Origin: Naegleria lovaniensis
Lineage: Eukaryota; Heterolobosea; Eutetramitea; Acrasida; Naegleriidae
Assembly (NCBI RefSeq): GCF_003324165.1
Contig: NW_025407837.1
Coordinates: 652,357 to 716,356, forward strand
DNA: 64,000 nt
Direction: 5' to 3'
This document shows positions 18,395-64,000 of this stretch, piece by piece (position 1 is the first letter of the stretch; the number at the start of each line of letters is the position of its first letter). The position numbers and the translations under genes are program-made. Under the pieces are notes generated by a model. The model made no database searches and was not told the DNA's origin. It worked only from the letters and a program-made list of their open reading frames with translations.

Positions 18395-21026
18395 TTAAAG
18401 TTCATCCTTCTCTGAAGGAACCTCTGTTGCTTTCACTTCCTCTACGGATGGGCCCTTCTTTTCAGCTTGAGCATTCTTATAGGACAAGCCAGCAGTCACA
18501 ACATTGACCAAACGATCAGTGAAGGCCTTCTTATCTTCCAAATCATAACCAGAAATCAAGGAAGCAGTATCGTATAACAGAGTGATAGCTTCAGTGAGAG
18601 TATTGTCATTAATATTGTTCTTCAAAAGATTATTCATGTTTTGAACCATTGGGTGATTGGCATTGAGCTCAATAGTTCTCAATTTCATCATCCAATCCAT
18701 GTGAGATTGTTCTTGTCCCAAAGCTTGAGCCTTCATGATACGTGCCATGTTAGCAGAAACACCAAAGGACGAGGCAACGAGAATGGCTGGAGCATTTGAA
18801 GTTCTTCGGCTAATGGTGACCTTTGAAACCTTTTCCTTCAACAACAAATTCATGACAGAAATGAGACTGTCATATTCCTTTGTCAATTCCTCGGTTTCCT
18901 TCTTCTTTTGTTCCTCATCTTCGTTAGGGAATTTGACATCTTCCTTGGCAATATTTTGCAATTTCAGCTTTTTAAATTCGTTGAGTTGTTGAACCATGTA
19001 TTCATCGAGTGGATCAATCATGTAAATCACTTCCAAATCTCTCTTCTTGAATTCTTCCAAGAGTGGAGAACTTTCAACTTCCTTCATATCTTGACCAGTG
19101 ACAAAGTAAATTTGTTCTTGATTTTCCTTCTTTCTCTCGACATATTCTTCCAAACTAATAGCCTCATCAGTAGACTTGGAAGTAGTGAAACGCAACATTG
19201 AGACAAGTTTGTTACGATTTCTGTCATCCTCAATAACTCCCAATTTAACATTCTTCCCAAATTCCTTCCAGAATTGTTCATACTTGGTGAGAGTCTTTTC
19301 CTTCTTTTCTTCCTTCTTCTCTTGCTCCTCTTCCTTCTTTTCTTTTCGTTCCTTTCTTTCAGTCTTATCCTTTTCAGACAATTCATTCATAATTTGAATA
19401 GCCTTTGCCAACAACTTCTTTCTAATCATGGCCAACAATTTGCTGTGTTGAAGAGTTTCACGTGAGACATTGAGAGGTAAATCCTCACTGTCAACCAAAC
19501 CCTTAATAAAGTTCAAATAACGTGGTAACAATTCTTCAACAGCTTGATCAGTAATGAACACTCTCTTCACGTACAACTTGATGTTATTCGATTTTTGAGT
19601 AAAATCAAACATGTTGAATGGAGCCTTAGATGGGAAATAGAGAAGTGACTTGAATTCGACTTGACCTTCAGCACTGAACAATTCCCAGAACAATGGATCT
19701 TCAGTGGCACCAGTCATGGCCTTATAGAATTGAATATATTCCTCATCAGTAATGTTGGATGGAGATCTCAACCACAATGGTTTTTGTTCATTCATAATGT
19801 TCCATTCCTCAACAGTCTTCTCAACCTTCTTGGTCTTCTTTTCTGGAGTTGTCTTGGATTCTTCCTCAACCTTGACTTCTTCCTTGGTTTCATCTTCAGT
19901 TGGCTTGGTCTCACTTTCAGTTTGAGCAGAGGCAGTTTCTTCCTCGACTGGCACTTCTTCAAATTCAGTTCTCACTTCATGCAAATAAATTGGGAAGTGA
20001 ATGAAACTACTATACTTCTTAATGAGTTCCTTCAATTTGGATACAGTGGCATATTCTTTAGCGTCATCCTTCAAATAGATGGTCAATTCGGAACCTCGTC
20101 CCAATGTGTCACCTCTTGGATCTTCAACAATGGTGAAAGTATTGTCAGCAGTACTAGTCCAAATATATTGCTTGTCATCGTTGTGCTTGGTAGTGACTGC
20201 AACTTTTGAGGCAACCAAAAAAACACTGTAAAAACCAACACCGAATTGGCCAATCAGAGAATTATCAGGAGAAGACGAAGCTGCTTCCTTTTGAAGCTTT
20301 TCAATAAAAGCTTTAGTGCCGGACTTGGCGATGGTTCCCAAATTTTGCATTAAATCTTGCTTGGTCATACCAATACCAGTGTCTCGGATCTTGAGAATGT
20401 TAGCCTTTGGATCGGCCCAAATACGGATTTCAAGATTTGGATTGGATTCGAGAGCCTTTCGATCAGTCAAGCTCAAGAATCGAATCTTGTTGAGAGCGTC
20501 AGAGGCATTGGAAATTAATTCTCTCAAGAAAATGTCCTTGTTCGAGTAGAGTGAGTTGATAATGATTCCTATTCACATCAATTTTGTGAATGCCATGTGT
20601 TAAAATCACAATGATGATGATGTAATATAAATAATAATTATTTTGATGGAAACCCAAATATGATGATGATTTAATTACAAGAATTAGCACGATATATCAC
20701 AATGATAAACACACCCAAATATGATGATGATTTAATTACAAGAATTGATTAATAAGAAAAACCCAAAAGATGACACCTACCTAGTAATTGATTAATTTCG
20801 GCTTGGAATTGATGTTGCTCTCCAGTACTCTCTTGCGAATTCAAAATTTGTTCCAACTCATCGGCAACAGTCGAGGTACCAGAACCAGGTACATTTACTG
20901 ATGGAGTCTCCTCGGCATGAATCATGATGAGCCTTCCATCAAAAACATTTGGAAGGTCAATGTACCCACCAAAAGCAACAGTAGAGTTGCTAGTAAGACC
21001 GAGCGAGTGGTGATGGTCTTGTTCAT
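18395..21026 (-). CDS. GRP94: endoplasmin (GRP94), ER-resident HSP90
   Basis: Exon 2 is 20568-18395 and exon 1 is 21026-20781. The 212-bp intron runs GTAGGT to GTGAATAG, phase 1, joining QLL-G-IIINSLYSNKDIF. HSP90 hallmarks are present: ELISNASDAL, IRDTGIGMT, GQFGVGFYSVF, the charged linker, and the client-binding region with NVSRETLQHSKLL. The C-terminus is KDEL and the N-terminus (MNKTITTRSVLLATLLLLLV) is a signal peptide, so this is the ER paralogue rather than cytosolic HSP90. Exon 1 as written shifts frame near the T5 run at about 20945. Either one T is missing, which would give 806 residues (a normal length), or a short intron of about 60 bp lies there. It folds secretory and surface proteins with ATP. 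Confidence 0.93.
20652..20746. repeat. 34-bp perfect direct repeat inside the GRP94 intron
   Basis: ACCCAAATATGATGATGATT and the following 14 bases occur identically at 20652-20685 and 20713-20746, a period of 61 bp. It lies wholly within the intron and accounts for part of its unusual length (212 bp against mostly 45-115 bp elsewhere). Confidence 0.85.
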
Positions 21027-21986: not shown

Positions 21987-22490
21987 TTTCTCAAAAAGTG
22001 TGTGTTTGTTGAAGAATTGGTTTGGGTGAAAAATTGGTTGTTCAAAAAACGTGTTGGTTCTTTTGGTTTGAAACGGAGTTGTTGTTGCAAAAATTCTCTT
22101 CTTGGTGATTGTTTAAAGTCAACGTCACGAATGAAGAAGATCTTGTTAACGTATTGTTTTTGTTGAATGTATCGGTTACTTGTTTCTTCGCTGAAATTAT
22201 AAATTCATAAATAAAGGCCTCAATATTCATAGCAAGACAAGCCAATAGACCCAGTTGCAGGATGGATTTGGCAATCCGGAATTGAAAAAAAATAAAATGT
22301 TTGGGACGCTACCATGTCGCTTGCAAGAACAATCGAAACAAAACAAATATAAACGGTCACCCCGATCAACCATCATCAGCACTTCTTGATCAGCATCATT
22401 CACAACCTCATCTACTTACCATCAACTTCATTGCTTCAACACCGATCACTGATCGCATCATCATTAACAGCAACAACACTCTCCAGCACA
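21987..22490. other. intergenic, 504 bp
   Basis: Divergent 5' flanks of the 173-aa gene and the gene at 22491. It includes an A-rich block at 22286-22297. I see no RNA gene or convincing terminal inverted repeat here. Confidence 0.4.
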
Positions 22491-23203
22491 ATGCCAAAAG
22501 AGCAATCAAAGAAGATCACACCTTCCCAACCTTCAAAGATATCAAGTACACCAAAAAGGCAGCGTCGTCGTTACAAATATCATCCATTGGAGGCCTTTGT
22601 TAAAGTGGATAAGATACCAATCACCATGCATCCAAGCCCCCTCAATTTAATCCATTTTACTCACAACTCCCNNNNNNNNNNAATTTAATCCATTTTACTC
22701 ACAACTCCCATCGGAAACAAGCTGCTCGTATGGAACTCAAGCTTTTCAACTTTTTGTGGGACATGAATTCTCCTTGCAACGGCCCAGCACGGACTCGATT
22801 GCCAATAGGTGAGTGTAAAGAATCCGTTTTTGATATGTATATGTGTAAGACTATGGGGCCCGAGAAGTATGTTCGTGTGGAGCAATATTCTCCTTGGATC
22901 AACCGAGAAGGTGACATTGAACGGACTCGTCACATCATTTACGAATTCAATTATCCAAACTTTCCTTCTTTCGGGGATGGGACTTGGGCAAAGAATTATA
23001 TGAGTGTCGACCAAAAGCATGTAATTGACAGCCTTAGAAAGAGATTCAACAGGCCCATTCGCTCAGAACTTGAAACTGTTCAATATCGTTGCATTGCATC
23101 CAAGTTGATCATTTCCTACGACACCTCATTCGAATTATATTATGCACACCTCAGTCATTGGGTACAGTCAAAGAATGGAGATTGTTGGATTGAAAGTTTT
23201 TGA
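22491..23203 (+). CDS. unknown basic protein, interrupted by a false assembly gap
   Basis: From ATG 22491 the frame runs into ten Ns at 22672-22681. The 28 bases before the Ns (22644-22671) are repeated exactly after them (22682-22709). Removing the Ns plus one copy (38 bp) makes the frame continuous to the TGA at 23201-23203, about 224 residues. The N-terminus is Lys/Arg/Ser-rich (TPKRQRRRYKY), suggesting nuclear or DNA-binding behaviour. The rest is compact, with FPSFGDGTWAKNYMS and conserved-looking Trp/Tyr/Cys. I do not recognise the family. It ends 2 nt from the stop of the convergent transposase-like gene, so it may be the second gene of that element. Confidence 0.65.
22644..22709. other. 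spurious 10-N gap between identical 28-bp contig ends
   Basis: Copies 22644-22671 and 22682-22709 are identical and abut the Ns on either side. Two contigs overlapping by 28 bp were apparently padded rather than merged. Confidence 0.9.
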
Positions 23204-23205
23204 TT

Positions 23206-24762
23206 TCATTCATCATTGCTAGGACATCCTTTCCGTTTCTTGTGTGACATTGTTGCAGTTACTCTCCCAGCGAAGGCATTGGTGTCTGTATCTTTGGAAG
23301 TTTGCTTCTTCCTGTTCTCCTTGTCATTTTCTTGGATCTTTTGAATCATCATGTTCAAATTATCACGATCCGTAATTATGGTTGGGTCCACTAAAGAAGC
23401 ATCATACCATTGATACAATTCCTTTTGTGGTTTGACATGACTTGCATCCCAAGAATAAAGCTTTTTTAAACGTTTTTCATGCCAATATGTTTCTCCTGTT
23501 TTTTCCTTCAAGTCAATTGCGACTAATACCTTTCGCCATTGCCACAATAGCAATTGTTTGGTTGGGTGTATTTGAGTACGACCTCCTCCATTGTTAATAA
23601 TTCGATTAAACACTGCATGGTGAAATAAATGAGACCGTTCGAATCCCTGATTACTCAAAATCGAGAGTGATAATTTTTCTTTGAAAAGAGAGCTCATTAT
23701 TGAGGGTACATGAATTATAAAATGGAAATAATGAGCTTTAATTCCTTGAGTCCATATTGAAAAACACGCAACTAAGAATTGCATTATCAGTTTGTCCAAT
23801 TCCACAATCTTATTTGCTGTCAATACATTGTCATTATTTTCGTTATCTTGATGCATTTCAATAATAATGATAATATTTCGCAACAATTTCAGAATTTGTA
23901 AATATTTTTGTTTGGTGCTTGGTTCAATATTATCAACAACTTTCTCAATATTTTGTAAAATAGTGTTACAATGATCTCCCGACAGCATACATGACTTGAT
24001 TGATGATCGTGCTGAGGTTTGAGAAATTCCATAATTCGATACTCGTTCGTGGAACTCTTTCCAATTAAATGTTTCCAATCCATGTAATGTTTGTATATTT
24101 TTCTGAATCTCATATTTGTAAGTTGTTGATGCCATATAACCAATAACATTTTCTACTAGCCTCTGTTTGATATGAAGAGCACATAGTATTGTTTGTGGTG
24201 GAGAAAAAGGTAACTGGCCGTCAAGAGAGTCGCGTGGAGTTGATGCAAAATCTACAATAGTTTGAGCCATACAATAGGGACATAAATCAAATGAGAACGT
24301 CATGCCTACATTATGCATGTCTGAAACATAAAAAAGACAAACTTGATGCTTCCCAAAATATTGTTTTTGCAAAACACGCTCAATCTCATCGTGAAGCGTT
24401 CCAATTGTTTCTTTGATACTTTCTTTTGTTTCCTTCATCTGAAATAACCCAATATAAAACACAGAATAAACAGCCTGCGATGGAAATACATCTCTTAAAT
24501 TGAGTGGAACCAATGCAACTGCAACTTGTTTAACTCCATTAATTTCTCTACCATCTACCCCAATTTTAAAAAATATTTTCTTGGGTAATTTTTTCCCTAA
24601 TGACATACATAGCTTCAGAATATAAAATATGGCTTGATCTAAGTCTATAATATATCCAATGTAGTTTGAACTTGGACATCGTAATTTGAAAGTTTTCTCA
24701 ACTTGTTCATTTAGTGATTGTTTCGATGTTGTCATCTCTTTCCTTGTCGGGAGTAATGTCAT
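23206..24762 (-). CDS. RAG1/Transib-like DDE transposase core
   Basis: 518 residues from ATG 24762. The order of signatures matches the RAG1 catalytic core: Asp70 in KIGVDGRE (like the DG strand of RAG1 D600), Asp148 in FYVSDMHN (like LADESDHE, D708), a CPYC pair at 161-164 (like CTLC), ALHIKQRLVENV at 195-206 (like ALHCD..GN), SGDHCNTIL, then HFIIHVP at 347-353 (like the RAG1 HKTLAHVP zinc histidines) and Glu375 in NQGFERSH (like GNES, E962). All three acidic positions are kept. The C-terminal tail is basic. The first 20 residues (LLPTRKEM) look like the continuation of the upstream frame rather than a natural N-terminus. A DD-E recombinase fold is my inference from pattern order, not from a search. 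Confidence 0.6.
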   Translation of the reverse strand: MTLLPTRKEMTTSKQSLNEQVEKTFKLRCPSSNYIGYIIDLDQAIFYILKLCMSLGKKLPKKIFFKIGVDGREINGVKQVAVALVPLNLRDVFPSQAVYSVFYIGLFQMKETKESIKETIGTLHDEIERVLQKQYFGKHQVCLFYVSDMHNVGMTFSFDLCPYCMAQTIVDFASTPRDSLDGQLPFSPPQTILCALHIKQRLVENVIGYMASTTYKYEIQKNIQTLHGLETFNWKEFHERVSNYGISQTSARSSIKSCMLSGDHCNTILQNIEKVVDNIEPSTKQKYLQILKLLRNIIIIIEMHQDNENNDNVLTANKIVELDKLIMQFLVACFSIWTQGIKAHYFHFIIHVPSIMSSLFKEKLSLSILSNQGFERSHLFHHAVFNRIINNGGGRTQIHPTKQLLLWQWRKVLVAIDLKEKTGETYWHEKRLKKLYSWDASHVKPQKELYQWYDASLVDPTIITDRDNLNMMIQKIQENDKENRKKQTSKDTDTNAFAGRVTATMSHKKRKGCPSNDE

Positions 24763-25373
24763 TAAATTGACTTCTTTTCGAAGTTATGATATGTAACATC
24801 AGAAATCAAGTTATTATCTCGCCAATATTGCACAATAGTTACATCTTTCTTTTCAATTAGATATTCTTTCAGTTTTTGATAACGATGGCTGTATCTAATA
24901 TTTTGCTCTAATTCTTGGATTACTGTTTTAATACCTTCATCAGTTTGAAGATAACATTCCAGCCATGCATGTACATCATGTCCTAAATTACCTAACATTT
25001 TCTCAAATATAGACACTATTTCTTTTGCTCGATCTTTCGCTCCACGGTTGTAATTGTCTTGATTTGATTGAATACCAGGGTATTTGTGAGGACATGCTTG
25101 GACTTTTTGGTGTTTACAACAAGCACATTCCCAATATTTCAATTCTACTTGTTGATCATTATCAGATTGTGCTTGAGAATGGTTGAATGAGTCACATGTA
25201 TTGGATTGTAAAGCGGTATCAGTTGTATAACAATTTTTCCATTGTTCAATATTATATTGTTGAGAGCAAATTGGTTGTGTTGGGAATTGTTGAGGCTGTG
25301 ATTGCTGTTGAGGCTTGAAATAGTTCCAAAGTGCAAATTGGGACAAATATGTCTCACAAGTCTGGTCTGCCAA
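24762..25373 (-). CDS. middle segment of the transposase-like gene (zinc-binding, Gln-rich), frame-shifted
   Basis: About 203 residues, open from roughly 25484 with no ATG, ending in TAA at 24764-24762. The stop overlaps the next ATG as TAATG. It contains a Gln-rich stretch, a Cys/His cluster (ECACCKHQ, then CPH), and a helical segment ending ISDVTYHNFEKKS. A one-base shift at CGAAAAG would continue it directly into the core frame (RKEVNLMTLLPTRKEM), which reads more naturally as one protein. I therefore treat this as the N-terminal part of the same gene, broken by an indel, an assembly error or true recoding. Confidence 0.5.
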   Translation of the reverse strand: MADQTCETYLSQFALWNYFKPQQQSQPQQFPTQPICSQQYNIEQWKNCYTTDTALQSNTCDSFNHSQAQSDNDQQVELKYWECACCKHQKVQACPHKYPGIQSNQDNYNRGAKDRAKEIVSIFEKMLGNLGHDVHAWLECYLQTDEGIKTVIQELEQNIRYSHRYQKLKEYLIEKKDVTIVQYWRDNNLISDVTYHNFEKKSI

Positions 25374-25392
25374 AATGAATGGTTCGACATAC

Positions 25393-26097
25393 TTAAGCCC
25401 AGAATATTGTATACAATTGAGAAGCGTTCCATTGATCGTTCCACTGTTGAGAAAGGTTAGGATTAGTGTTTGCTTTTTCCATGCTATCTACTGTTTGAGA
25501 GTAATCTTGTGAGGTTGTATTAAGTTCATGTTGCTGACTTGCATCATTAATTATATCAGAAGCTTCTACTATAATATTATTTTCATAAATATCATCATCA
25601 TTTTCATTAGAGTTCTCGTCAACAAAATAGGATGCAGCATCAGCAACCAATTGATTGAAAGCTTCATCTTGGTCCTCGACTTGAGGCTGATTGAAAATTT
25701 CTTCCATTGAATTATCAAATAATTCATCGTCATCCATACGTGTATCATAGTGATCACTGTTGTGATTGGGATGCGTTTGGAACAGGTGTTGAATTAATAA
25801 ATCATGATGATCTTTCTTCGACAACTTTAACAGAGTTCCAATAACGGCTGCCAAGCTTAACAAAATTGCGGACTTTTTTACCTTTGGAAACCCAATCTCT
25901 TGCTGTTGGCAATTATTGATCGTGATGTGTTTGCCATAGCTTCTTTCGATAATATTGCAGATTTTTTGATTTTTCTCCTTTTTAAAGAACGATCCAACAA
26001 TTTCATCGGCAGAATAATATTGATCGCCTTCGTATTGATAGGTATGTAAAGAATGAAGTGCAGGAAGGTGTTCTTGAATCTCTAAAGTTTTACCCAT
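25393..26097 (-). CDS. N-terminal segment of the transposase-like gene
   Basis: About 234 residues from ATG 26097. It has a folded-looking start (LPALHSLHTYQYEGDQYYSA), a basic helix with KVKKSAILLSLAAVIG, and an acidic Asn/Asp-rich tail. It ends at a TAA just where the next frame, shifted by +1, is already open, with about 90 bp of overlap. No GT-AG intron of this organism's style joins the two in phase. It may be a separate small gene, but spacing and strand suggest it is the start of the same unit. Confidence 0.5.
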   Translation of the reverse strand: MGKTLEIQEHLPALHSLHTYQYEGDQYYSADEIVGSFFKKEKNQKICNIIERSYGKHITINNCQQQEIGFPKVKKSAILLSLAAVIGTLLKLSKKDHHDLLIQHLFQTHPNHNSDHYDTRMDDDELFDNSMEEIFNQPQVEDQDEAFNQLVADAASYFVDENSNENDDDIYENNIIVEASDIINDASQQHELNTTSQDYSQTVDSMEKANTNPNLSQQWNDQWNASQLYTIFWA

Positions 26098-26889
26098 CAC
26101 GATGAATTTTAATAATTTTTAATATATAAATGATGATGAACTCTACACGAATTCTAGGAAGCCAATTTTTGTAATATTGTCAACAACATGGCTGTAATAT
26201 AACAATTCCGAAGTGTGATTCAAAAAGGAAATTACATGACGTGTTTTCGTTTTAGTTGAAGCATAAACTACAGTTTGATCAGGTAGTTAACATTACCCAT
26301 TTTTTTGTCGAGTATGAAATCTTAATACTCGAAGCCCGGAAGTTTGTTTCGCTGGCAGTTTTGCTATGATCATGATCCTATGGATATCCGTTATGGATGA
26401 CGATACCTTGGGATCAAACATGTCCTTTTCACATTTTTGAGCAAAATGCATTCATTTCGAGACCGCTGCGACTCTTCATCCCTCAAAGCGAATAAACTTC
26501 AATGGCTCGTCATAACTCTTGCCGAGATCAGCTCTAACACCTATCAATGGTTAATGTAGAATATTTGGTAATGTATGGAAATTCAACATAATTAGCATGG
26601 TGCTAAAGCTCAACATTACATTGTATCAAGCTTGTTCTTGGAAGGGCAAGTTTGGTAAATTGTACAATGCTCAATTTGATATCGCTTTTCAAAAATAACA
26701 TGTTGGTAACATGGTTCCGTTGTATTGTTCGTTACAGAGAGTGGCCTTATGAATGGCCAGATTACGCATGAATTCAATTTTGATGTGAACAACATAAAAT
26801 TGGAAAACATACTAACACACAATACTAATGCATGTTTTGAAAGAGCCACTCGATATATAAAGGTTATGCACAGACCATATTGAGCTGTT
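26098..26889. other. intergenic, 792 bp
   Basis: Upstream flank of the transposase-like gene and 3' flank of the multi-TM gene. The stretch 26310-26560 is GC-richer than its surroundings and could be a relic or the element's end. I found no tRNA fold and no matching inverted repeat at the other side of the element. Confidence 0.35.
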
Positions 26890-28716
26890 TCAATCTTGTT
26901 CTGCGGCATGTGGCTCTTGAACTTGATCTGTGATGTGCTTAGGGTGAGCCGTTTTGTGTTGGTGACTGTAGTTACTTTCAGTACTTTCCTCGTTGTGATG
27001 ATCGAAGGAAGAGGTTGAATAATGATTATCAAATACATGCTGATGTGAGGAAGTATTTGAGGCGTCACTGATCTTTCTTACTGCATGTATGGTTTCATGA
27101 TGACCATGATGATAAAACGCGCTCGTATCATGAATTTCTTTTTTTCTCCTGTGACATATTCCACAGAAAGCATTCGCAAATAGAGTATTGTAGAATTGCT
27201 TGATGCAGAACCAATCTGAAAGGAAATAAAATCGATTGCAATACGAGAGTAAAATAAAAAAGTGTGTAATGACCCATGGATAAACTGTCATAAATCGATC
27301 TCCAATATTATTAAATGTAAATAAAAAATAGGGATATGAAACTATAAAATAGATCGTGTAGAATGTGAAGTAGAGATAGGTGAGACTTTCAAAAATTAAA
27401 TATTTTGTGAACTATAATTACAAAACATGACGCTCATGAAACAAAGAGTCTGACCGTCACACACTACTTACTTTGAATTGAAAAAATCGAATCTCCTTAT
27501 TCTCCCTTAACACTCTAAAATAGACCTTAATACCATAAATGACTAGTAATGGGAAAATAGTAATAAAGTAAAGAAATAGAACCACCATCATGATATATCT
27601 TGCAAGTAGGACTCTTGAGTACCCTGTTACAAATATCACAGTCAATATGTATCCAATGAATAAAAATAGGGTACACATGAAAACGAACAGACTCAAAATT
27701 TTGATATTGTTACTTGTGTTAGTGCTGGTGTTGTGCGTGATAGAGTCCTTATTCTCCATTGTTCTCAATACAACAAGCCACTGAAATACAATTGGTATCA
27801 ATCCCATCAATGAAAGAATGCAGTCGATACTGATCAGCACCAATCTTGCATCGTAGGGCAATATGGATATCAAGCTAATGAATCCAAGCAACAAGTTGCA
27901 TATAGAGATTAAGGTTGCAATAATTCTGAAATCAGATATTGATTTGATTATGGAGATTAATGCTTGCTTCAGACGACTAATCTTTGTTTTCTTACTATAC
28001 ACCTTTTCGCTCACGAGAGAAACGTGTGACAAGTTGTCATCAGTTTCATGCTTGTCATGAGTGCTGTAGTATAGTGCTCGTGAATGGCTTTGTAAACCAG
28101 TTTCTTCATTGGGAGAAGAGGGAATGGGATCTGTATGTTGAGGATTTGGTTGAGGTGGTGATGATGATGATGTATTGGCTGTATGGGATTGTGATGGATC
28201 CGAATGAAGATGTGAATTCAAGAGAAGAGAGTCTGACAAGGATGAAAGTCCTCTTGATCGAGTTCGAATTCGATTGCCATAGGACTTCTTGACGACATAT
28301 TTTCGAATATTCGAAGAGTCCAGTCTGAACGAGGTTTCCATGGCTGGAGGATGGCCACTAGTGTTGTCACTGCCATGTGCATCTGCACTATGTTCATCGA
28401 TGCTACAATTCGAATCGTCTGTGAGAGAGTCTGTGTTGTTATGAAGGGCAGCCTGGTGGTCATAATCCGTTTCTGTTTCCTGATTATGAAAGCATTGTTT
28501 TCGTCTTGCAAGCTCTTTAGCAAGTTTAAGCTTTTGACTACTATGCCATCCCATGACATGCTTAAATTCGAGAGGTAGCAACACCATCAGTATAATGACA
28601 ATCAATTCAATAATATATAGAGTAATAAAGATTGATCGAATTCCGTTTTGAAAATCATTGAGATGTGGTTGGATGAGTTTCTTGCCGTGGTGGTAAATGG
28701 ATCGAAACACGGCCAT
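26890..28716 (-). CDS. multi-pass membrane protein with long cytoplasmic loop, two exons
   Basis: Exon 1 is 28716-27472 and exon 2 is 27411-26890. The 60-bp intron runs GTAAGT to AATTATAG, phase 0, giving 588 residues. TM1 (IFITLYIIELIVIILMVLL) is followed by a roughly 190-residue hydrophilic Ser/His/Asp-rich loop. Then come about six more helices (for example LISICNLLLGFISLISI and FLYFITIFPLLVIYGIKVYF). A His-rich C-terminal tail (FYHHGHHETIHAVRK, DNHYSTSSFDHHN) could bind metal. The plan resembles the protein at 9207-10677 and seven-TM receptors generally. No transporter or GPCR signature is clear. Confidence 0.75.
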
Positions 28717-54221: not shown

Positions 54222-54410
54222 ATGAAGGATCATTTCAAACTCTCTTGGGTGGGTGATGCTGTGAGAGCTTCCAACTGACACTTGTTATGATGAGGATGAT
54301 GACGGTTGCATTTGATGTTGAGGTATTTTTTTCAGAGAAATTTTTAAAAAATCTTGGTCAACCAAAGTGTGTGTTTTACAATGAGAGCCGTTCGCACCAC
54401 ATTCCTTACG
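54222..54410. other. start of gene-free subtelomere
   Basis: No convincing gene is seen from here to the telomere. Open frames are short, lack introns with good phases and have non-protein-like composition. Confidence 0.6.
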
Positions 54411-54605
54411 TTGGATTGCAAGATGCCGAAGGCAGCTGCAATTCAATGAATTGATTCCAACGTCCTTTTTACGAATTGCAAGATGCCGAAGGCATCTGCA
54501 CCCTCTCAAATTGATGATTATTCCTTTTGACGAATTGCAAGATGTCGAAGACATCTTCACTCTCTCGCAGTGATAATTTTGCGTGGTCCATTCAATTGCT
54601 AGATG
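54411..54605. repeat. about 60-bp tandem repeat carrying a conserved hairpin
   Basis: ATTGCAAGATGCCGAAGGCA-like units begin at 54415, 54475 and 54534, with a decayed fourth at 54595; periods are 60, 59 and 61. Each of the first three centres on a hairpin with a GAA loop. Arms are GATGCC/GGCAGC (one mismatch), GATGCC/GGCATC and GATGTC/GACATC, so copies 2 and 3 differ by a paired change. On the minus strand the repeat can be read as a CLRHLAI-containing 20-residue unit, a possible relic of an LRR-like gene. Confidence 0.75.
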
Positions 54606-55159
54606 GTGATGTTGAATTTTATCCAAACACCTCGTTTTATTGGAAGAGGGTTATGACGTTGGAGTGCATCTCTCGTTCATGGTCTTGTTCTGATTTGCTT
54701 GTTGCAGTGAAGTAGTGGGTGGATGTTTGAAGGCAGAGATGATTTCATCAAAAAATGCCTCGTTCCCACTTCTCTACAACTATCATCATCAATGATTGAT
54801 TCATCCATCTTTCAATTTCATACCTCGGAATTGAAGGCACTCCATCCACAGATCATCATCCATGAATTGTATTCATTATCAAGTGTTTGGAATGAATGTT
54901 TCTTGAAATTGAAACTGAATGATCAAATTTTGAGTGCTGATCAAGTCTGAACTCGACATTCACTTGACAAGAGTATCACTCCAACGAGTTGTGGTGATCA
55001 TACCGTCCACAATAACAACAATGATCATGATTGGAGTCATTGATGGAGTTAATTCATTGAATGGGAGTTGTTCGGAAGTTCCGAAGGTGATCCCTATGGT
55101 GATACGGTCAAATGAGATCGGCATACCTACTTGACAGATTCTTCAACAACTTGATAGGA
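54606..55159. other. subtelomeric sequence without recognised features
   Basis: Rich in TGATGA and CATCATC runs. The open frames at 54723-54950 and 54934-55134 are short and unconvincing. Confidence 0.4.
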
Positions 55160-55600
55160 TTATTGTGCTCGATGAGTATGATACATTCATGCTAGTTGTG
55201 CTCACTGAATCATCATGTTTGCACAGTAGTCTCCCACCGATGCAATGAAATTTTCTTTTTCACATCACTGTTCAACAGAGGATGACACTTTTCTGATTGT
55301 AATAATATTTTATGATAGTGCATGGTATGATGATGATATACTGTAATTTGTGGGAATTATTAATTTGAGTGGATTTTAATGTCAACCACCTGAGAATACG
55401 AAGAATAATTTTATTAATAATTTTTATATTATTTACGGAAGAGTGAAATCAATGGTATATTATGATAGAAGACATTACGAGGAGTATATTGATATGAATT
55501 TTATGGATTGAATATGAAAGAGTTGAGCATGGTTGAGCACCTGAGATGACATTGTTGGTGAGGACAATTCGGAGAAGATCTCTCTCATTTCATGTGCATG
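55160..55600. repeat. old, diverged copy of the 1.1-kb subtelomeric repeat
   Basis: It shares ordered islands with the two better copies: GATGAGTATGA, CTCACTGAATCATCA, TTTTCTTTTTCACAT, TTATGATAGT, AATTTGTGG and GAGCACCTGAGA. Spacing is altered by indels, so alignment is by eye only. Confidence 0.5.
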
Positions 55601-56086
55601 TACAGTGTTTTTTCAATAAATATACATGTATTTATGATGATGATCATGTTTATGTTGTTTGTTTGAGGAATGATTCAATATTCATGGAGTATGACCCTCA
55701 TGGAGGAGGATCTTTGTCAATTTTCTTCGACATTGCTGCGAAAAATGAAATTCAATAGAAAAGTCCAGCGAAAATGAGAAATATGTTTCGTTCACAACCA
55801 ATGTACAATATTAAAGAATGAAACTTTCAGAATTGAAGTTTTTCAGTCAATTGTATCTAATTATTATGTTGAACCGTGTTGTACAATGTTGGATGACTCG
55901 ATCACATTGAATGTGAATATTCTTCTGTACAGTGCATTCATGAAGAGGAACACCATTTCAGCCATTGCTTGACTTTGAATTGATGATGTGTTGTTCGTGG
56001 TGAGTGTTGGTGTTTGTTCATTGTGGAGTATGGCTTGTTGAAAGACTGTTCATTTTTCTTTGACAAGTAGTTGTGAAGTTGATCGT

Positions 56087-56432
56087 GTGTGTCCGTGAGG
56101 GTGATGCTGCTTGGCATGATATTCTCCTGATACTTAAACGTAGAGTGTAAGTGTGTATGAGATCTTTGTAGAGTATTTGTATTGTTTGTGGCATGAACAG
56201 TGATGTACCTGTTGAATGAATCAGCTCCTATGTTTGAGAGTCGATTTTTCGCTGGAGGTGGAATATTTTTAAAAAATTTCAAAGTTCAAAACGATAGAAA
56301 AGTCAAGCCAAAACTTGAAGTGAGGCTCTATTTCGATAAATACTGATTGATATCATCTTTAATTTAAATATATTGTATAACTCACTGTGTGGAATATTGT
56401 TATTAGATTTAAATTGATGAGAATGACTTGTG
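56087..56432. repeat. subtelomeric repeat S, copy 1 (about 346 bp)
   Basis: From GTGTGTCCGTGAGGGTGATG to GACTTGTGA it matches 61051-61392 with scattered substitutions and small indels, in the same orientation. A shorter fragment of the same family lies at about 60865-60950. Confidence 0.85.
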
Positions 56433-57990
56433 AAAGAACCATGATCAGAGTGGAAGCAGTGAACATGACAATGTGTGTTGTAGTGAAGAGTACAACCATG
56501 AATTTGCTTAAAAAGCAATACTATGTGATGTCGAAGATGTCTACATGATGATGAATCGATTATGTGAGTTGTTCTGTAATATTTTTAAAGACGAAAGCGC
56601 TGTACCTATCACCTACTCAAAATCACGAAGAAATTTTTCAAGGGTGAAACGAACATTTGGAGATTTCTCCATGAATAGTTGCTATCAAGGAATGCAATCA
56701 GGAATACCCTTGTTTTTGATGTTGTAGAGCTGAACTAACAAGTTAATTTTTGTTGTTGACGTCAAAGATTACATGAGTTGTTGGATATTGTGAGATTTTT
56801 CAGAGGACGAAGACAACAAACGATTACGTTGAAGAACACCACAACGTGAAAATGATATGAATGCATCTACATGGTGAGGAGTTGTAAATGAAGAAAATTC
56901 TCGAACTGAAGTGATGGATCCATGAAACTGGAGGAGTGCTATCATTCTGAGAAAAATGTTATTGCAATACATGAAAATTTGAAAGTGCTTATTTTTGAGT
57001 TATTCTTCGATGTTGTGTCATATGGTGTGATTCTATGAGTTTATGAACAAGATTGACACAATTTACCGTTTCATTCATGAGGCTATTCCTCTTCGACTTG
57101 TTCAAAGAGAACCCTACACATGGTGGGAAACATTCTATGTGAATCTTGTCACCATATTCAACCTAATATCATGTAATAGTGTGTTGATGACATGGAACAA
57201 GTTGTGAGTAACTATATTTGAAAATACTCCAGATGTCAAAAGTGGTGAACACAACAATGAATCTCAAAATTCAGAAATTAAAAATCCTTGATACTGATAT
57301 ATGTTTGAGATGACTACAAGTTAGACATATTCTGTTAAATTGAATGCTTAACACATATTTTTTCATGAGATGGAGCTGACTCTGTCATTGTTACCTTAGT
57401 TGTGTAGGACATGACATGAGTTGTGAGTGATGATCAATGTCATTCTCTCAGTTGTATCTCATCATGGAGAGTAGATTGATATAAATTTTACCAGATGTAG
57501 TTTCAAAAAGTTTCATGATGTTGACTTGTATAAATTTTTAGCATAACGAGTTACTCAATGACATAAAGTATTTCAAAAATTTGTCAAAATTTGTCAGTGT
57601 TTATGAGACTGTGATGATGTCATGTTGATGTAATTTCAGGAGTCGTACATTGATATTACGAAAGTTATTTCTAAACACTGTTGTGTGAGTTCATGGTGGT
57701 GATGTCATCACGAGTGATATGAAAATTTTAAATAAATGACATATTCATGCATACAACACATAAATCTATTGATGATATGAATTGTAGGTGTTGATTTTAT
57801 TTGTTTGTGTGATGGTGTGAAACATTGTGAAAAAATTGTGATAATATATGTATATATTGATAATGAAGAGTGATGGTATCATGTAATTAACAATAACTGT
57901 ACTATGACATGAGTGTTACATGGTGGTAAAGTTTTATTCATTGTGTATTTATAGTTGTGGAGTAAATTGAAAAATGGTGATCTGAGTGAG
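56433..57990. other. subtelomeric sequence, no feature seen
   Basis: About 1.56 kb of AT-rich DNA with many TGA/ATG words. Frames at 56545-56727 and 56769-56972 (minus) are too short and uncorroborated to call. Confidence 0.4.
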
Positions 57991-58140
57991 TAAGGGTTAT
58001 AAAAAATAAACAAAGTCTAAGGTATTGAGGGTTCATAAAAAATGTTTAAGGAAATGAGGGTTGATTAAAATTTATTAAGAGTTTGAGGGTTATTTAATTT
58101 TATTAAGATTTTCATAACCTAGATAAGGGTTAATTAAAAA
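57991..58140. repeat. degenerate GGGTT-containing minisatellite
   Basis: Five units of the form (T)RAGGGTT followed by A/T-rich sequence have GGG at 57994, 58029, 58058, 58087 and 58127 (spacing 29-40 bp), directly before the internal telomere-junction copy. Confidence 0.6.
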
Positions 58141-58174
58141 AGATTAAGGATTTTTTAAAATTAACAAACCTTCT

Positions 58175-58221
58175 TGGTCTTAGTCTCTTTTCATGGGTTT
58201 GATGAAAATTCTTGGGTTTGG
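58175..58221 (+). repeat. internal copy of the telomere-junction sequence with telomere remnant
   Basis: TGGTCTTAGTCTCTTTTCAT, then GGGTTTGAT and CTTGGGTTTGG. The same TGGTCTTAGTCTCTTT-CATGGGTTTGAT block sits at 63506-63535, immediately before the terminal arrays. This looks like a former chromosome end now internal. Confidence 0.75.
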
Positions 58222-59396
58222 ATAGGTGCCCAGCTTGACTTTGAATCTTAATTTTTCGACATGCTTAACGATGGGATTTTTAATTTTTATGAAATCGTCG
58301 GGGATGGAGGTATATCTATGTGTTGATATAACTTTCATCCATTAATTATGGGTAATTATTGAACTGTACTCGCTTAAAGTAGACCTCTCGTGCATGGTCG
58401 GGGTTTTCGTCATCTTTGATGTTGAGCTTGATCCAAGCATTTCATTCGATAGATTGTGAAGAGTAGTACATTCGTGCTAGCGACATCATTGGATAGTGAG
58501 CTAAGTTGGTTGAGTCGTTCAACAAATGGTAACAGGTGTCAAATTTTTGATAGAATTTAAGCGACACCATTTTTGTAGATCTCACGAAAATAATGGGGGT
58601 CATGATAGAGCATTCGATCAGGTTTAGGGTAGTTTTCGAGAAAATCAAGTTTGAAGGAGTTTCAACGAGGTCAAAAATGACATGAAAATTTTTCAAAAAA
58701 AAATTAAAAAAAAATGAAGCCAAACTTCCCTGCATTTTTGACAGGATCATCATCAACATCGGGTCATGTTTCCATTCATCATCATGTCATATTCATATTG
58801 ATCACATCAAATGTGCACATCATGATCAACATTTATGAGGAATATTTTGTGTGTATGAATACACATGGAAATGATAATCATCAAATAGTACTGGTTGGAA
58901 TTGTAGTGAACTGCTCCCGTTGGATGTGATGATCATGGAATGAATCTGATGATCGGAATGTTGTTACAGTGATCAGAAACCATGGAATTGATCGTTGGTT
59001 CAATTCAAAATGATGGTCATTTCATGACTTTGTGTGATGTGAAGTGCGATGGTGGCTCTATGGTAGAGCTGAAAAGTACGATCGAGACAAGTACTTCACA
59101 GAACTACATGAAATTGATATGGATGGATGTTCTGATCATTCAAATAACAAATCATCAGTTTTATTGATTGACATGATTGTTTCATGGAATGGGAGCACTT
59201 CGCTTTTCTCGGAAAACATCATTTCTTGAGGAAGGGTACAACTCTCCTCTCTTGTTCATGTCATTCATTCTATCACCATTACACGTTGTGATCATCATTG
59301 TAGAAGTGTTTCATGTGATTGTGAGTGTTTGAAAGTGATCATGATGAATTGTTGTTGGTATATCTTGTTGTATGATTGAATGATTATTTTATAACA
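58222..59396. other. subtelomeric sequence, no feature seen
   Basis: About 1.2 kb. It contains A-rich tracts (58695-58714) and only short open frames. Nothing supportable as a gene. Confidence 0.4.
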
Positions 59397-60481
59397 ATTG
59401 ACTGATTCAGTTTTTCGATAAACCAATGATTGCAATGTTGTATAATACATTGTGAAGAGCATTTCTATGACTATTGATGATGGATGTGATCATTATTGGT
59501 GGAGTATCATGATGAATGTTGTGGTGGTGTGACACCATGTTTTTCCGAGAGTGAGTGTGCCCTGAACACTACATATCAACATGTTCATCATGATGAGTAT
59601 GACACATCCATGTTGGTTTCACTCACTGATTCATCAATTTGTGGAAGTGGTGTCTCATTCTTTCAATTCATTTTTCTTTTTCACATGATATTACGATACT
59701 GAATAATTTTAAGAATATCACAGTGACTTTATATGATAGTATATAGTGTGATATTGTTATTTTGAAATTTGTGGAATTTATCTATATGAATTGATTTTGT
59801 TATGAGGCACATGAGCTGTGTTGAAAATGATTATTAATTAATTTTTGAAGAGTTGTCAGGAGAGTGATACAGATAGTTTTTTATGGTTGCTGGGATGGTG
59901 TTCAACACATTGACATTAATTGTTGTATTTGTTCATGTCTAGAATGTATTGTTGTTGAGCACCTGAGAAGATTTCGTTATGAAGTGGATTACTGTATGAG
60001 ACATTGTTTTTTTCCTAGAGTTGTTGCAATCACCCATGTGTTGATATTGTTCCATTGTGTTATTATTGATTGTGTGGAGTGATGTGGTTCATTGTATGAT
60101 GGAAGGATTCTGTCAGGTCATGTTTGACACTTTTTCATGGATAGCCTGTGTTGATTTATGATGGCTGCATTGAAAATAAAGAGTTAATTCATTGATTTTC
60201 ATGATCAGTACATATGAAATGTATGGTGTATGTGGTTGATATGCGTCAATGTTCAAGTCATCTTGATTTTGAATTTTGTCTGGATTTACTGACCCTATAC
60301 TTCCGCATTTAGAATTTATCCAAAAAAATGTTGTTGTGATTGATCAGTGTTGTTTGATGTTGTGATGACGGAATCATGATTGAAATCATTTGTAGTGATC
60401 GTAGATGTGTCTTTCAACCGTATTGGATACGTCTACCATGTTTGTTGTTATCACCAAATGGATGAGTGTTCAAAGTTGTTC
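59397..60481. repeat. subtelomeric repeat R, copy 1 (about 1085 bp)
   Basis: From ATTGACTGATTCAG to GTTCAAAGTTGTTC it aligns with 61974-63045 over its full length in the same orientation, with substitutions and small indels. Each copy holds a 68-codon frame (59496-59702 here) differing at many residues, which I do not call as a gene. Confidence 0.9.
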
Positions 60482-60490
60482 TTGGGTTTG
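60481..60490 (+). repeat. telomere-like remnant at the edge of repeat R copy 1
   Basis: CTTGGGTTTGG begins exactly where copy 1 stops matching copy 2 (copy 2 continues with ATGAAGAG). A ten-base match is short, but its position at a breakpoint is suggestive. Confidence 0.45.
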
Positions 60491-61050
60491 GCTCCACCTA
60501 CTCTTTTTTTTGAGCCATTTTAACGACTTTACTATCAAAAAAAAATTTTGATTTCAATAAGTCCTGTCCACGGTCCGAAGTTAACTGCTGAGGACGAGAT
60601 ATACTCAAATCCTAGGCTAATTTTCATTTGCTTTCTAATGGTGTTGAAATTTCTAAGAGATGTGAAGTGGTTGTTGAGTTATTTCACTCTGAATTTTGAA
60701 GGTAAATTGGCCCAAAAAAAAATTTAATGTTGTAAATGAAGAGAGGATGATTATTTATTATCGGACTGGTATTTCAAACTGTAAAACCAGAGAGATGCAT
60801 GACATTGGAATATAAGGTTTTTGAGGACTTGGAAATTTTTTTTGACAATATTTTGGACTCAACAATTCCAAGTTCAAAATGATAGAGAGGTCCAGCGAAA
60901 ATATGAAATATAGCTCTTTTTCAATAAATACTGATCAATTGAACCTCAAATTGATATATGAAGTGTTATTCACCATGTAGAACACTAATATTATGCTTGT
61001 GTGTCGATGGATGACTCCTGACGTGGAAATGTGGTACTCCTATCCTCTGA
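60491..61050. other. unique subtelomeric sequence between repeats
   Basis: Includes a fragment related to repeat S at about 60865-60950 (CAAGTTCAAAATGATAGA and TTCAATAAATACTGATCA). No gene is seen. Confidence 0.4.
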
Positions 61051-61392
61051 GTGTGTCCGTGAGGGTGATGTTGCTTGACATGATATTCTCCTGATAATTA
61101 AACGTAGAGTGTAGTGTGTATGAGATATTTGTAGAGTACTTGTATTGTTTGTGACATGAACAGTGATGTATCTGTTGAATGAATCAGCTCCTATGTTGGA
61201 GAGTCGGTTTTTCGCTGGTGGGGGAATATTTTTAAAAAATTTCCAAGTTCAAAATGATAGAAAAGTCAAGCCAAAACTTGAAGTGAGGCTCTATTTCGAT
61301 AAATACTGATTGATATCATCTCTAATTTGAATATGTTGTGTAATTGGGTGAAATATTGTTATTAGATTTAAATTGAAGAAACTGACTTGTGA
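61051..61392. repeat. subtelomeric repeat S, copy 2 (about 342 bp)
   Basis: Matches 56087-56432 (see that entry). It lies 582 bp before repeat R copy 2, whereas copy 1 lies about 2.96 kb before R copy 1, so the blocks were shuffled independently. Confidence 0.85.
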
Positions 61393-61973
61393 GGAAGTGC
61401 ACGTTTCTCTCCAGAGGCTTTTTTCATGATGATCTTTGATTTCTAGGTTACATACTATATATCAACAATTAGGTATTGATGTTATCTAGATGTACATTTT
61501 GAAAATTTTAATATTTGTGAAGTAGTTGTTGAGATATTAAGGATCAAAATGAGCTTTCCCGGTCAGATCACGTCAAATGTCCCTCTCGACCAAAATATAT
61601 AAAATAACGATTCCATTTCTTGGACAGATATTAGGTTTTAATCCATAGAATATGGAGAGAGTTGAATTTTTGGTTGTTACTAAGTAGTTATTGAATTACA
61701 CTTTAATACTTCTCACCAGTCCGAGAGTTGTTATAACAAATTACCCATTACGATTTAAGGATTACTTTTTTCACGTATTGATAGAGCCTGACCCCTAGAA
61801 CGTAATCCACATCTCTGTTGAGGAAACTATGAAGTAAGTTTTTATCATGGTCGAGTTAAATCAGGAAAGACGATTTTGAGGGCTAAGGCTTCTTCAAAAC
61901 AAAAAAATAAAAAAATGCTCAAAATGAATCGGAAGAAGAAATAATCGGATACGACTCTTCTGTTTCTTTGGAG
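61393..61973. other. unique subtelomeric sequence
   Basis: 581 bp, no repeat partner in the window and no convincing frame. Confidence 0.4.
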
Positions 61974-63045
61974 ATTGACTGATTCAGCCAGTGATTTCTA
62001 TGTTGTATAATACATTGTGTAGAGTATTTCTATGACAATTGATGATGGATGTGATCATTATTGGTGGAGTATCATGATGAATGTTGTGGTGGTGTGATAC
62101 CATGTCCTTCCGAGAGTGAGTTTGTCATGAACAATACACATCAACATGTTCGTCATGATGAGTATGACACATCCATGTTGGTTTCACTCACTGATTCATC
62201 AATTTGTGGAAGTGGTGTCTCACTCTTTCAGTTCATTTTTCTTTTTCACATGATATTACGATATTGAGCAATTACAAGAATATCACAGTGATTTTTTATG
62301 ATTGTGCACACTAGGATACTGTTATTTTGAAATTTGTGGAATTTATCTATATGAGTTGATTTTGTTATGAGGCACATGAGCTGTGTTGAAAATGATTATT
62401 AATTAATTTTTGAAGAGTTGTCAGGAGAGTGATGTAGATAGTTTTTTATGGTAGATGAGATGGTGTACAACACATTGATATTAATTGTTGTATTTGTTTA
62501 TGTCTAGAATGTATTGTTGTTGAGCACCTGAGAAGATTTCGTCATGAAGTGCATTACAATATGAGACATGGTTCTTTCCTTGAGTTGTAGCAATCATTCA
62601 TGTGTTGATCTTGTTCTATTCTGTTATTATTGATGTTGTGGAGTGTTGTGATTCATTGTGTGATGGAAGGATTCACTTATGTCACATTTGACACTTTTTC
62701 ATGGATAGCCTGTGCTGATTCATGATGGCTACATTGAAAATAAAGAATTAATTCATTGATTTTCATGATCAGTGCATGTGAAATGTATGGTATATGTGGT
62801 TGGTATGCGTCAGTGTTCATGTCACCTTGATTTCGAATTTTGTCTGGATTTACTGACCCTATACTTCCGCATTTAGAATTTATCCAAAAAAATGTTGTTG
62901 TTACTGAGCAGTGTTGTTTGGTGTTGTGATGACGGAATCATGATCGAAACCATATGTAGTGATTGTAGATGTGTCCTTCAACCGTATTGGATACGTCTAC
63001 CATGTTCGTTGTTATCACCAAACTGATGAGTGTTCAAAGTTGTTC
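61974..63045. repeat. subtelomeric repeat R, copy 2 (about 1072 bp)
   Basis: Matches 59397-60481. The 68-codon frame at 62061-62267 corresponds to the one in copy 1. Beyond 63045 the sequence is unique up to the telomere-junction block. Confidence 0.9.
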
Positions 63046-63505
63046 ATGAAGAGTGATGAGATGAAACATAGTTGTTTGAATGTTCATTCAAGTTGATAAA
63101 CATGCTTGTCATGATGATGTGATAACGTGATAGTGATTGTGTTGATCCATCTATTGTATTTGTAGAGTAATGTTTCGGTCATTTGAATAAAGTTTGATGT
63201 TGTAGTGGATGACAACTTTGTGTTGAATGTTAAATATTCTATCATTGTCATGTAGTAGTTATGTCATAGTGTGAGTCCTATCATTTAGAAGTGTTGTGTA
63301 TTGTTGTGTGCTTGGTGTGATATGAAACTTTGAAAAAATTGTAACATTTTCTTTATATGATGTGATGATGTTCACTACTCTTTGTGAAATTGATATATCA
63401 TGTTTGCCATGTATATGACAACATATCTATGAAGTGTTATTGAATGTATATTGATACTTGCTGAGATAATTGATAAATGTTAACTTTGGAGTGTTTGAAA
63501 AATTA
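63046..63505. other. telomere-proximal unique sequence
   Basis: 460 bp of AT-rich, TGTTG-rich DNA with no gene, leading into the junction block at 63506. Confidence 0.4.
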
Positions 63506-63542
63506 TGGTCTTAGTCTCTTTACATGGGTTTGATACAATTCT

Positions 63543-63672
63543 ACTCTTTGGGTTTACTCTTTGGGTTTACTCTTTGGGTTTACTCTTTGGGTTTACTCTT
63601 TGGGTTTACTCTTTGGGTTTACTCTTTGGGTTTACTCTTTGGGTTTACTCTTTGGGTTTACTCTTTGGGTTT
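63543..63672 (+). repeat. 13-nt variant telomeric array
   Basis: Ten exact copies of ACTCTTTGGGTTT start at 63543 and every 13 bases to 63660. Each unit is one telomeric GGGTTT plus ACTCTTT. The array passes without interruption into the 6-nt telomere. Confidence 0.95.
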
Positions 63673-64000
63673 GGGTTTGGGTTTGGGTTTGGGTTTGGGT
63701 TTGGGTTTGGGTTTGGGTTTGGGTTTGGGTTTGGGTTTGGGTTTGGGTTTGGGTTTGGGTTTGGGTTTGGGTTTGGGTTTGGGTTTGGGTTTGGGTTTGG
63801 GTTTGGGTTTGGGTTTGGGTTTGGGTTTGGGTTTGGGTTTGGGTTTGGGTTTGGGTTTGGGTTTGGGTTTGGGTTTGGGTTTGGGTTTGGGTTTGGGTTT
63901 GGGTTTGGGTTTGGGTTTGGGTTTGGGTTTGGGTTTGGGTTTGGGTTTGGGTTTGGGTTTGGGTTTGGGTTTGGGTTTGGGTTTGGGTTTGGGTTTGGGT
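63667..64000 (+). repeat. telomere, (TTTGGG)n
   Basis: About 55 perfect TTTGGG repeats reach the window's last base. The G-rich strand runs 5' to 3' toward the end, as expected for a right-hand chromosome end. The unit differs from TTAGGG by one base. Confidence 0.97.

Follow-up and report, generated by a model that had tools for sequence, protein, structure and literature searches.

A candidate DDE transposase gene of RAG1/CMCT type, twice interrupted, in Naegleria lovaniensis

In a 64,000-nucleotide stretch of contig NW_025407837.1 of Naegleria lovaniensis, referred to here as the window, we identified on the minus strand what is probably a single copy of a gene for a cut-and-paste Asp-Asp-Glu (DDE) transposase of RAG1/CMCT type, spanning some 970 codons and twice interrupted (rough probability, 0.76). 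Its core lies in a 518-codon open reading frame (ORF), ORF c, that runs from an ATG at 24762 to a stop at 23206 and is open from 24783. The probability of the resulting 525-codon open frame was ~1e-18, given the local base composition and treating bases as independent. We consider the ORF c locus most likely a decayed, or else a domesticated, CMCT-type transposase. Its closest family is probably a less-described CMCT lineage and not RAG1/Transib proper; to name Chapaev would be a guess.

Reading frames and motif set

A preliminary description of this DNA had presented the interval 23206-26097 as a single frame carrying a series of motifs in RAG1 order. Our analysis confirmed the motifs, all of which occur in ORF c, with starts at residues 69 (VDG), 147 (SDMHN), 161 (CPYC), 195 (ALHIK), 262 (GDHCN), 347 (HFIIHVP) and 371 (NQGFERSH). 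The single frame held for 23206-24762, which contains all of these motifs; upstream of it, the interval is divided between two more frames, the middle one in another phase. The features of the locus are as follows.

23206..24762, minus strand: ORF c, 518-amino-acid frame with the probable DDE transposase core (frame and motif analysis)
24765..25487, minus strand: ORF b, coding-like frame upstream of ORF c and out of phase with it (frame analysis, codon GC)
25396..26118, minus strand: ORF a, open frame further upstream (frame analysis, codon GC)
24553..24555, minus strand: codon of D70, first putative catalytic Asp (VDG), inside predicted strand 1
24319..24321, minus strand: codon of D148 in YVSDMHN, three residues past predicted strand 4; putative second catalytic Asp
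24271..24282, minus strand: CPYC, with C161 and C164 as putative zinc ligands of C(2)C spacing
24172..24174, minus strand: codon of H197 (ALHIKQRL), corresponding to the class-conserved LH
23956..23979, minus strand: GDHCNTIL (G262-L269), paired in the pooled block model with RAG1 NGNFARKLM and Transib DGNTARRFF
23710..23724, minus strand: HFIIH, with H347 and H351 as putative zinc ligands of H(3)H spacing; the next residues are VP, as they are in RAG1
23638..23640, minus strand: codon of E375 (NQGFERSH), putative catalytic Glu

In ORF c, D, D and E follow one another in order, and the interval between the second D and the E holds a C(2)C pair (C161-C164), a histidine pair with a spacing of three (H347/H351) and a third His (H197). 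According to Kojima (PMC12730594), two Asp, a C(2)C pair, an H(3-4)H pair and a Glu, with a further conserved His, mark the whole CMCT clade, RAG1 included. That source lists EnSpm/CACTA, Mirage, Chapaev, Transib, Plavaka, ESTA and Lanisha as members, and gives the ends as mostly 5'-CA..TG-3' and the target duplication as 2-5 bp. Since this residue set is common to all CMCT elements, the signature that had been attributed to RAG1/Transib is a signature of the clade. ORF c resembles the clade in its residues and their order; CA..TG ends were not found at the locus, and no named lineage could be assigned. The claim of two zinc histidines ahead of the last Glu stood as to the pair, but the spacing is H(3)H, as opposed to H(4)H in the alignments of RAG1 and of Transib (6pqn).

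By homology of layout, the ORF c protein would act as a DDE nuclease with an RNase H fold, its two metal ions coordinated by D70, D148 and E375. Such an enzyme would nick and cut the transposon ends and then join them to the target. C161/C164 and H347/H351 may bind zinc and thereby shape the large insertion domain between D148 and E375, and ORFs a and b would supply the N-terminal region of the transposase. In sum, we infer metal binding and catalysis, a single ancestral gene, and a loss of activity at the locus.

The GC content at codon positions 1/2/3 was 0.469/0.253/0.315 in ORF a, 0.456/0.311/0.261 in ORF b and 0.425/0.309/0.288 in ORF c (window, 36.5%), declining from position 1 to position 3 in ORFs b and c and peaking at position 1 in ORF a. 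Between the core and these upstream coding-like frames lie two frame breaks. Because ORFs a and c are in one phase and ORF b is in another, the locus would be a gene of about 970 codons that was broken twice, that bears introns, or that was misassembled. ORF b, which contains a Cys-rich stretch, ECACCKHQKVQACPH, at 25086-25130, probably encodes the DNA-binding N-terminal part of the gene to which ORF c belongs, and ORF a is probably the N terminus of that gene. The part of ORF b that begins with a start codon (24762-25373) had no match in Pfam or PHROG, and the part of ORF a at 25393-26100 gave weak rows at chance level only.

To compare the motif order with chance, we used a model of eight ordered motif blocks with four rows, namely mouse RAG1 and HzTransib, with block sequences taken from PDB alignments, and two sequences of unverified origin. 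We take one of these to be a plant CACTA transposase and the other to be a coral/Hydra protein, called cnidarian-type here; the DG in the row of the latter was assumed. The blocks and spacing bounds were picked after the motifs had been seen, and the test is thus supportive, not blind. ORF c scored 79.5, whereas 1000 shuffles had a mean of 26.5 and a maximum of 47.0 (0/1000 reached ORF c). Its score was also reached by none of 20 other window ORFs, none of 28 Escherichia coli ORFs (at least 300 codons from stop to stop) and none of 49 reversed sequences. The best chain comprised D70, D148, C161, H197, G262, H347, H351 and E375. An identical chain was recovered without the cnidarian-type row (74.0 vs a shuffle maximum of 55.7, 0/1000), and the placements were the same without the D70 block (67.5 vs 42.8, 0/2000). 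When each row was left out in turn, z was 8.1 for RAG1, 7.4 for Transib, 6.5 for the cnidarian-type sequence and 2.1 for CACTA (8/300 shuffles), indicating that the model recognises the class and is poor at detecting CACTA. An initial block test without spacing limits was rejected, as it placed many blocks wrongly; there, ORF c was reached by 1/300 shuffles for RAG1, 4/300 for Transib, 0/300 for CACTA and 11/300 for the cnidarian-type sequence.

Comparison with transposase families

At the level of sequence, the closest match to ORF c is the unverified cnidarian-type protein, which itself resembles RAG1 weakly. This comparison took in D148 onward only. A free-end global alignment of ORF c residues 139-430 with this protein scored 129.5, above the maximum of 109.5 among shuffles (0/400). 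The alignment is blind to motifs, yet it paired each of D148, C161, C164, H197, G262, H347, H351 and E375 with the same amino acid at the corresponding site, and we regard it as a stronger test than the block model. The local alignment score was reached by 1/400 shuffles, and BLASTP gave an E of 0.004 for this one comparison. Both proteins have V-x-D-M, Q-G-x-E and W-Q-x-R stretches (24% identity by MAFFT). They differ in that C(2)C lies six residues nearer the Asp in ORF c and that its H(3)H is H(4)H in the cnidarian-type sequence. When searched on its own, the cnidarian-type protein matched Pfam RAG1 with an E of 0.029, which misses the curated cut-off, and zebrafish RAG1 (3jbw) with an E of 0.2 and H..H and Glu in register, outranked by an unrelated chain of the PDB (E 0.16). 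This leaning to RAG1 speaks for the cnidarian-type sequence being real.

With RAG1 and Transib, ORF c shares layout more than sequence. RAG1 and RAG1L (mouse 4wwx, lancelet 6b40) resemble it in motif order, in YFH...HVP and in the Glu region, but they have H(4)H and E-S-G-N-K. HzTransib (6pqn) has the same order of D-G, D, C(2)C, LH, G, H..H and E, but has H(4)H and the signature S-E-E-A-x-E-A-R-N-K-D, absent from ORF c. The E-x-x-N-K found at the catalytic Glu in the RAG1/Transib PDB alignments is replaced by E-R-S-H. With ORF c alone, no significant similarity to RAG1/RAG1L emerged: phmmer against PDB returned no RAG1/Transib at E<=10, BLASTP against RAG1/Transib nothing significant, and Pfam and PHROGs nothing relevant. 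The profile search that had been proposed as a check did not bear out a RAG1/Transib assignment, with Pfam RAG1 absent and the hhalign score against a RAG1+Transib profile reached by 53/150 shuffles (21/150 for the tail alone); HMMER filters discard most weak matches, which bears on the Pfam negative. Global alignment scores were reached by 139/400 shuffles for RAG1, with just H347 and H351 of the key residues in register, and by 3/400 for HzTransib, in a wrong register. Local scores were reached by 76/400 (RAG1) and 44/400 (Transib). A plain MAFFT alignment of ORF c, RAG1 and Transib misaligned the motifs and was discarded. The earlier assignment to a RAG1/Transib-like recombinase can therefore be kept as far as a DDE-type core, putative zinc ligands and a RAG1 layout are concerned, whereas membership in RAG1/Transib, or sister status to it, was unsupported.

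We also searched 177,635 PDB sequences with a joint profile of the ORF c core and the cnidarian-type protein. There was one match at E<=10, RAG1L 6b40 (whole-sequence E 0.019). Its two colinear segments, one over C(2)C and the other over H..H..E, are individually weak (independent E-values 3.3 and 120). Mouse RAG1 scored 11.9 bits with the cnidarian-type sequence alone, 11.1 bits when ORF c was added, and a mean of 1.6 bits when shuffled partners were added instead (2/60 reached 11.1). The joint profile gave HzTransib -0.4 bits, a score reached by 7/60 shuffles. PDB contains RAG1, RAG1L and Transib structures, and we know of no CACTA or Chapaev structure; for that reason it cannot separate RAG1 from the rest of the CMCT clade.

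The CACTA sequence used for comparison matched Pfam Transposase_21 with an E of 1.1e-82, whereas the ORF c protein had no match to Transposase_21 or DUF4218. The local alignment score of ORF c with CACTA was reached by 243/400 shuffles and the global score by 18/400, with H347 and H351 in register and the other key residues off.

The preliminary description had further inferred that the lineage would extend well outside animals. That claim was anticipated by published work: Tao et al. (PMC9435367) describe homologues of RAG1 and RAG2 that are linked in Aureococcus, a pelagophyte alga, as well as Transib-like proteins of fungal, plant and bacterial origin. Table 3 of PMC6125883 gives 38 CMC-EnSpm repeats for the N. 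lovaniensis genome, the same repeat class as our reading of ORF c when compared by class name, not by sequence. In the open-licence PMC literature on Naegleria transposons, judged by the titles and abstract openings listed, nothing pointed to the ORF c gene. A tblastn search of phage records gave four matches, all at E>=3.

Predicted fold, element ends and surroundings

Several points weigh against the transposase reading or limit the tests behind it. The cnidarian-type sequence, presumably a coral/Hydra protein, and the CACTA sequence are both unverified in their letters, and the former also in its host. All single-family chains of the block model misplaced some blocks, and the Transib chain misplaced every one, although the scores were reached by 0/2000 shuffles each for RAG1, CACTA and the cnidarian-type sequence and by 11/2000 for Transib, the weakest. 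The RAG1-only chain placed G262, H347, H351 and E375 correctly and misplaced D, C(2)C and LH, while the CACTA-only chain was correct for D148, C161 and H197 and misplaced the four later blocks. A model of RAG1 and Transib together was matched by 1/1000 shuffles and misplaced D148 and G262. Mouse RAG1 scored -1.6 bits with ORF c alone, a value reached by 6/60 shuffles. By the bit-score control, ORF c fits the RAG1 pattern but adds nothing, and the joint RAG1 signal is carried by the cnidarian-type sequence. Viral and genome contig collections yielded no confirmed relative when scanned with the ORF c protein, an ORF c-led alignment, the motif pattern or the cnidarian-type sequence. Scans of the same collections with the Transib and CACTA sequences were empty too, which indicates that they hardly contain eukaryotic transposases and makes the negative for relatives uninformative.

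The predicted fold is of low confidence. AlphaFold2 modelled full-length ORF c with a mean predicted local distance difference test (pLDDT) of 36.8, and residues 55-215 with a mean of 40.4 (block means of 40-59 over the first 90 residues and <32 beyond), with D148 in a region of pLDDT <50; the weakness is due to the lack of relatives in the alignment. In the model of 55-215, strands occupy 62-74, 77-86, 102-108 and 140-145, and a helix (113-135) separates the last two; D70 falls inside strand 1, and D148 lies three residues beyond strand 4. This order of strands and helix is suggestive of that of RNase H. None of 629 Foldseek matches to this model had an E<=0.001. Of the 50 matches listed, 27 were RNase H-like by title (Argonautes, retroviral integrases/intasomes, endonuclease V, RNase H1, poxvirus resolvase, Hermes, ISCth4), a count whose Argonautes include four SPARTA chains of unstated identity, and 10 were acyl-CoA ligases.

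RAG1/Transib elements have ends starting with CAC and a 5-bp target duplication, and EnSpm/CACTA elements have CACTA-type ends and a 3-bp duplication. Neither arrangement was found when 22000-23205 was compared with 26100-27459, skipping N-containing pairs and using 8 shuffles. The top pair of terminal inverted repeats scored 13.4, slightly higher than the shuffled tops (11.3-13.0), and lacked a target duplication, a further point against the reading. The top pair of ends starting with CA scored 11.4, in the same range as the shuffled tops (9.1-11.8); a truncated copy would have no ends. No second copy of ORF c was found in the window. Candidate GT..AG introns (40-399 nt) able to connect the frames with no stop in the joined reading frame numbered 16 from ORF a to ORF b and 75 from ORF b to ORF c. 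GTAAGT and GTATGT are strong 5' splice sites; neither begins any of the 16 a-b candidates or of the 40 listed among the 75 b-c candidates.

Two bases from the end of the ORF c stop lies a 157-amino-acid ORF on the opposite strand (22730-23203, plus), with no Pfam match at E<=1. Close to it, at 22644-22709, a 28-bp exact direct repeat flanks 10 N (22672-22681), which suggests a scaffold gap whose overlapping edges were left unmerged. On the minus strand, 27457-28716 is a 419-amino-acid ORF with a sub-threshold DUF6526 match (E 0.0021, 18.5 bits vs a cut-off of 23.7), and 18395-20527 encodes an HSP90 family protein whose KDEL end makes it probably the endoplasmic reticulum-resident (GRP94-like) form. 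Among 3 + 8 neighbour proteins there was no Pfam match to RAG2, although no search aimed at RAG2 was made. Farther to the right, about 9 kb (54300-63500) contain no closed ORF of at least 150 amino acids, with GC skew of 0.20 to 0.46 past 56 kb; this is perhaps a gene-poor subtelomeric stretch or a region of intron-rich genes. Ten perfect copies of the 13-mer TACTCTTTGGGTT (63542-63672) precede 56 perfect, telomere-like TTTGGG copies at the window end (63664-64000), with the G-rich strand directed to the right end, and 63542-64000 may be a chromosome end. Scans of the window with Rfam (gathering thresholds) and for transfer RNAs found none.

Competing explanations and implications

The two frame breaks and the lack of ends make a decayed copy the most likely state of the locus, with a domesticated gene that is spliced as its chief rival. 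The latter, a host gene derived from such a transposase with introns at the frame breaks, overlaps with the transposase reading, which leaves the present state open. The lack of clear element ends, the retention of the key residues in a single copy in the window, and the existence of bridging GT..AG introns are all in keeping with domestication. We nevertheless consider it unlikely, as decay accounts for the breaks more simply and the listed intron candidates have no strong 5' site. A relic of a tnp2-type transposase, that is, EnSpm/CACTA (CMC) proper, appears about equally unlikely. In H(3)H, CPxC and the F-E-R at the Glu, ORF c agrees with the CACTA sequence, whose histidines are aligned with H347 and H351 globally, and the CACTA-only block model was not matched by any shuffle despite its misplaced blocks. 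BLASTP, furthermore, aligned ALHIKQRLVENVIG with VMHVEKNVCDSLIG and FER with FER in register, although the E-values were 4.3 and 96; its top stretch was out of register (E 1.0). The CMC-EnSpm repeats given for the species would fit as well. The missing Transposase_21 and DUF4218 matches, and a global score within reach of shuffles with most key residues off, argue against this origin.

That the locus encodes a true member of the RAG1/Transib family in a protist, as the preliminary description had it, seems improbable to us. HVP follows the second His as in RAG1, RAG1L was the sole PDB match of the joint profile (in a database where, as far as we know, no CACTA or Chapaev structure competes), no shuffle matched the RAG1-only block model, and the global alignment sets H347 and H351 on RAG1 histidines. 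Set against this are the H(3)H spacing, the absence of E-x-x-N-K after the Glu, the lack of significance by phmmer, Pfam, BLASTP and hhalign, the shuffles that reached the global scores, and the missing CAC-type ends with a 5-bp duplication. Coincidental motifs in an unrelated protein would be more improbable still. The motifs were chosen post hoc, the scans gave no relatives, the comparison sequence was unverified and the single-family chains were weak or misplaced; but the pooled block models were not reached in 1000 or 2000 shuffles, the motif-blind alignment has 8/8 tested key residues in register, and the predicted strand order agrees. A last and highly speculative version would combine protist recombinases on the RAG1 plan, sister to RAG1/Transib, with domestication as a spliced host gene that has a conserved active site and no ends.

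If that combined version were true, a RAG-type enzyme would have been recruited independently for host use in a unicellular eukaryote. For the CMCT-type transposase that we favor, the observations suggest that the RAG1 motif series marks a broad transposase clade and is, alone, no proof of RAG1 ancestry. Should relatives confirm a separate protist lineage, it would provide an extra point for rooting the clade that gave rise to Transib and RAG1.

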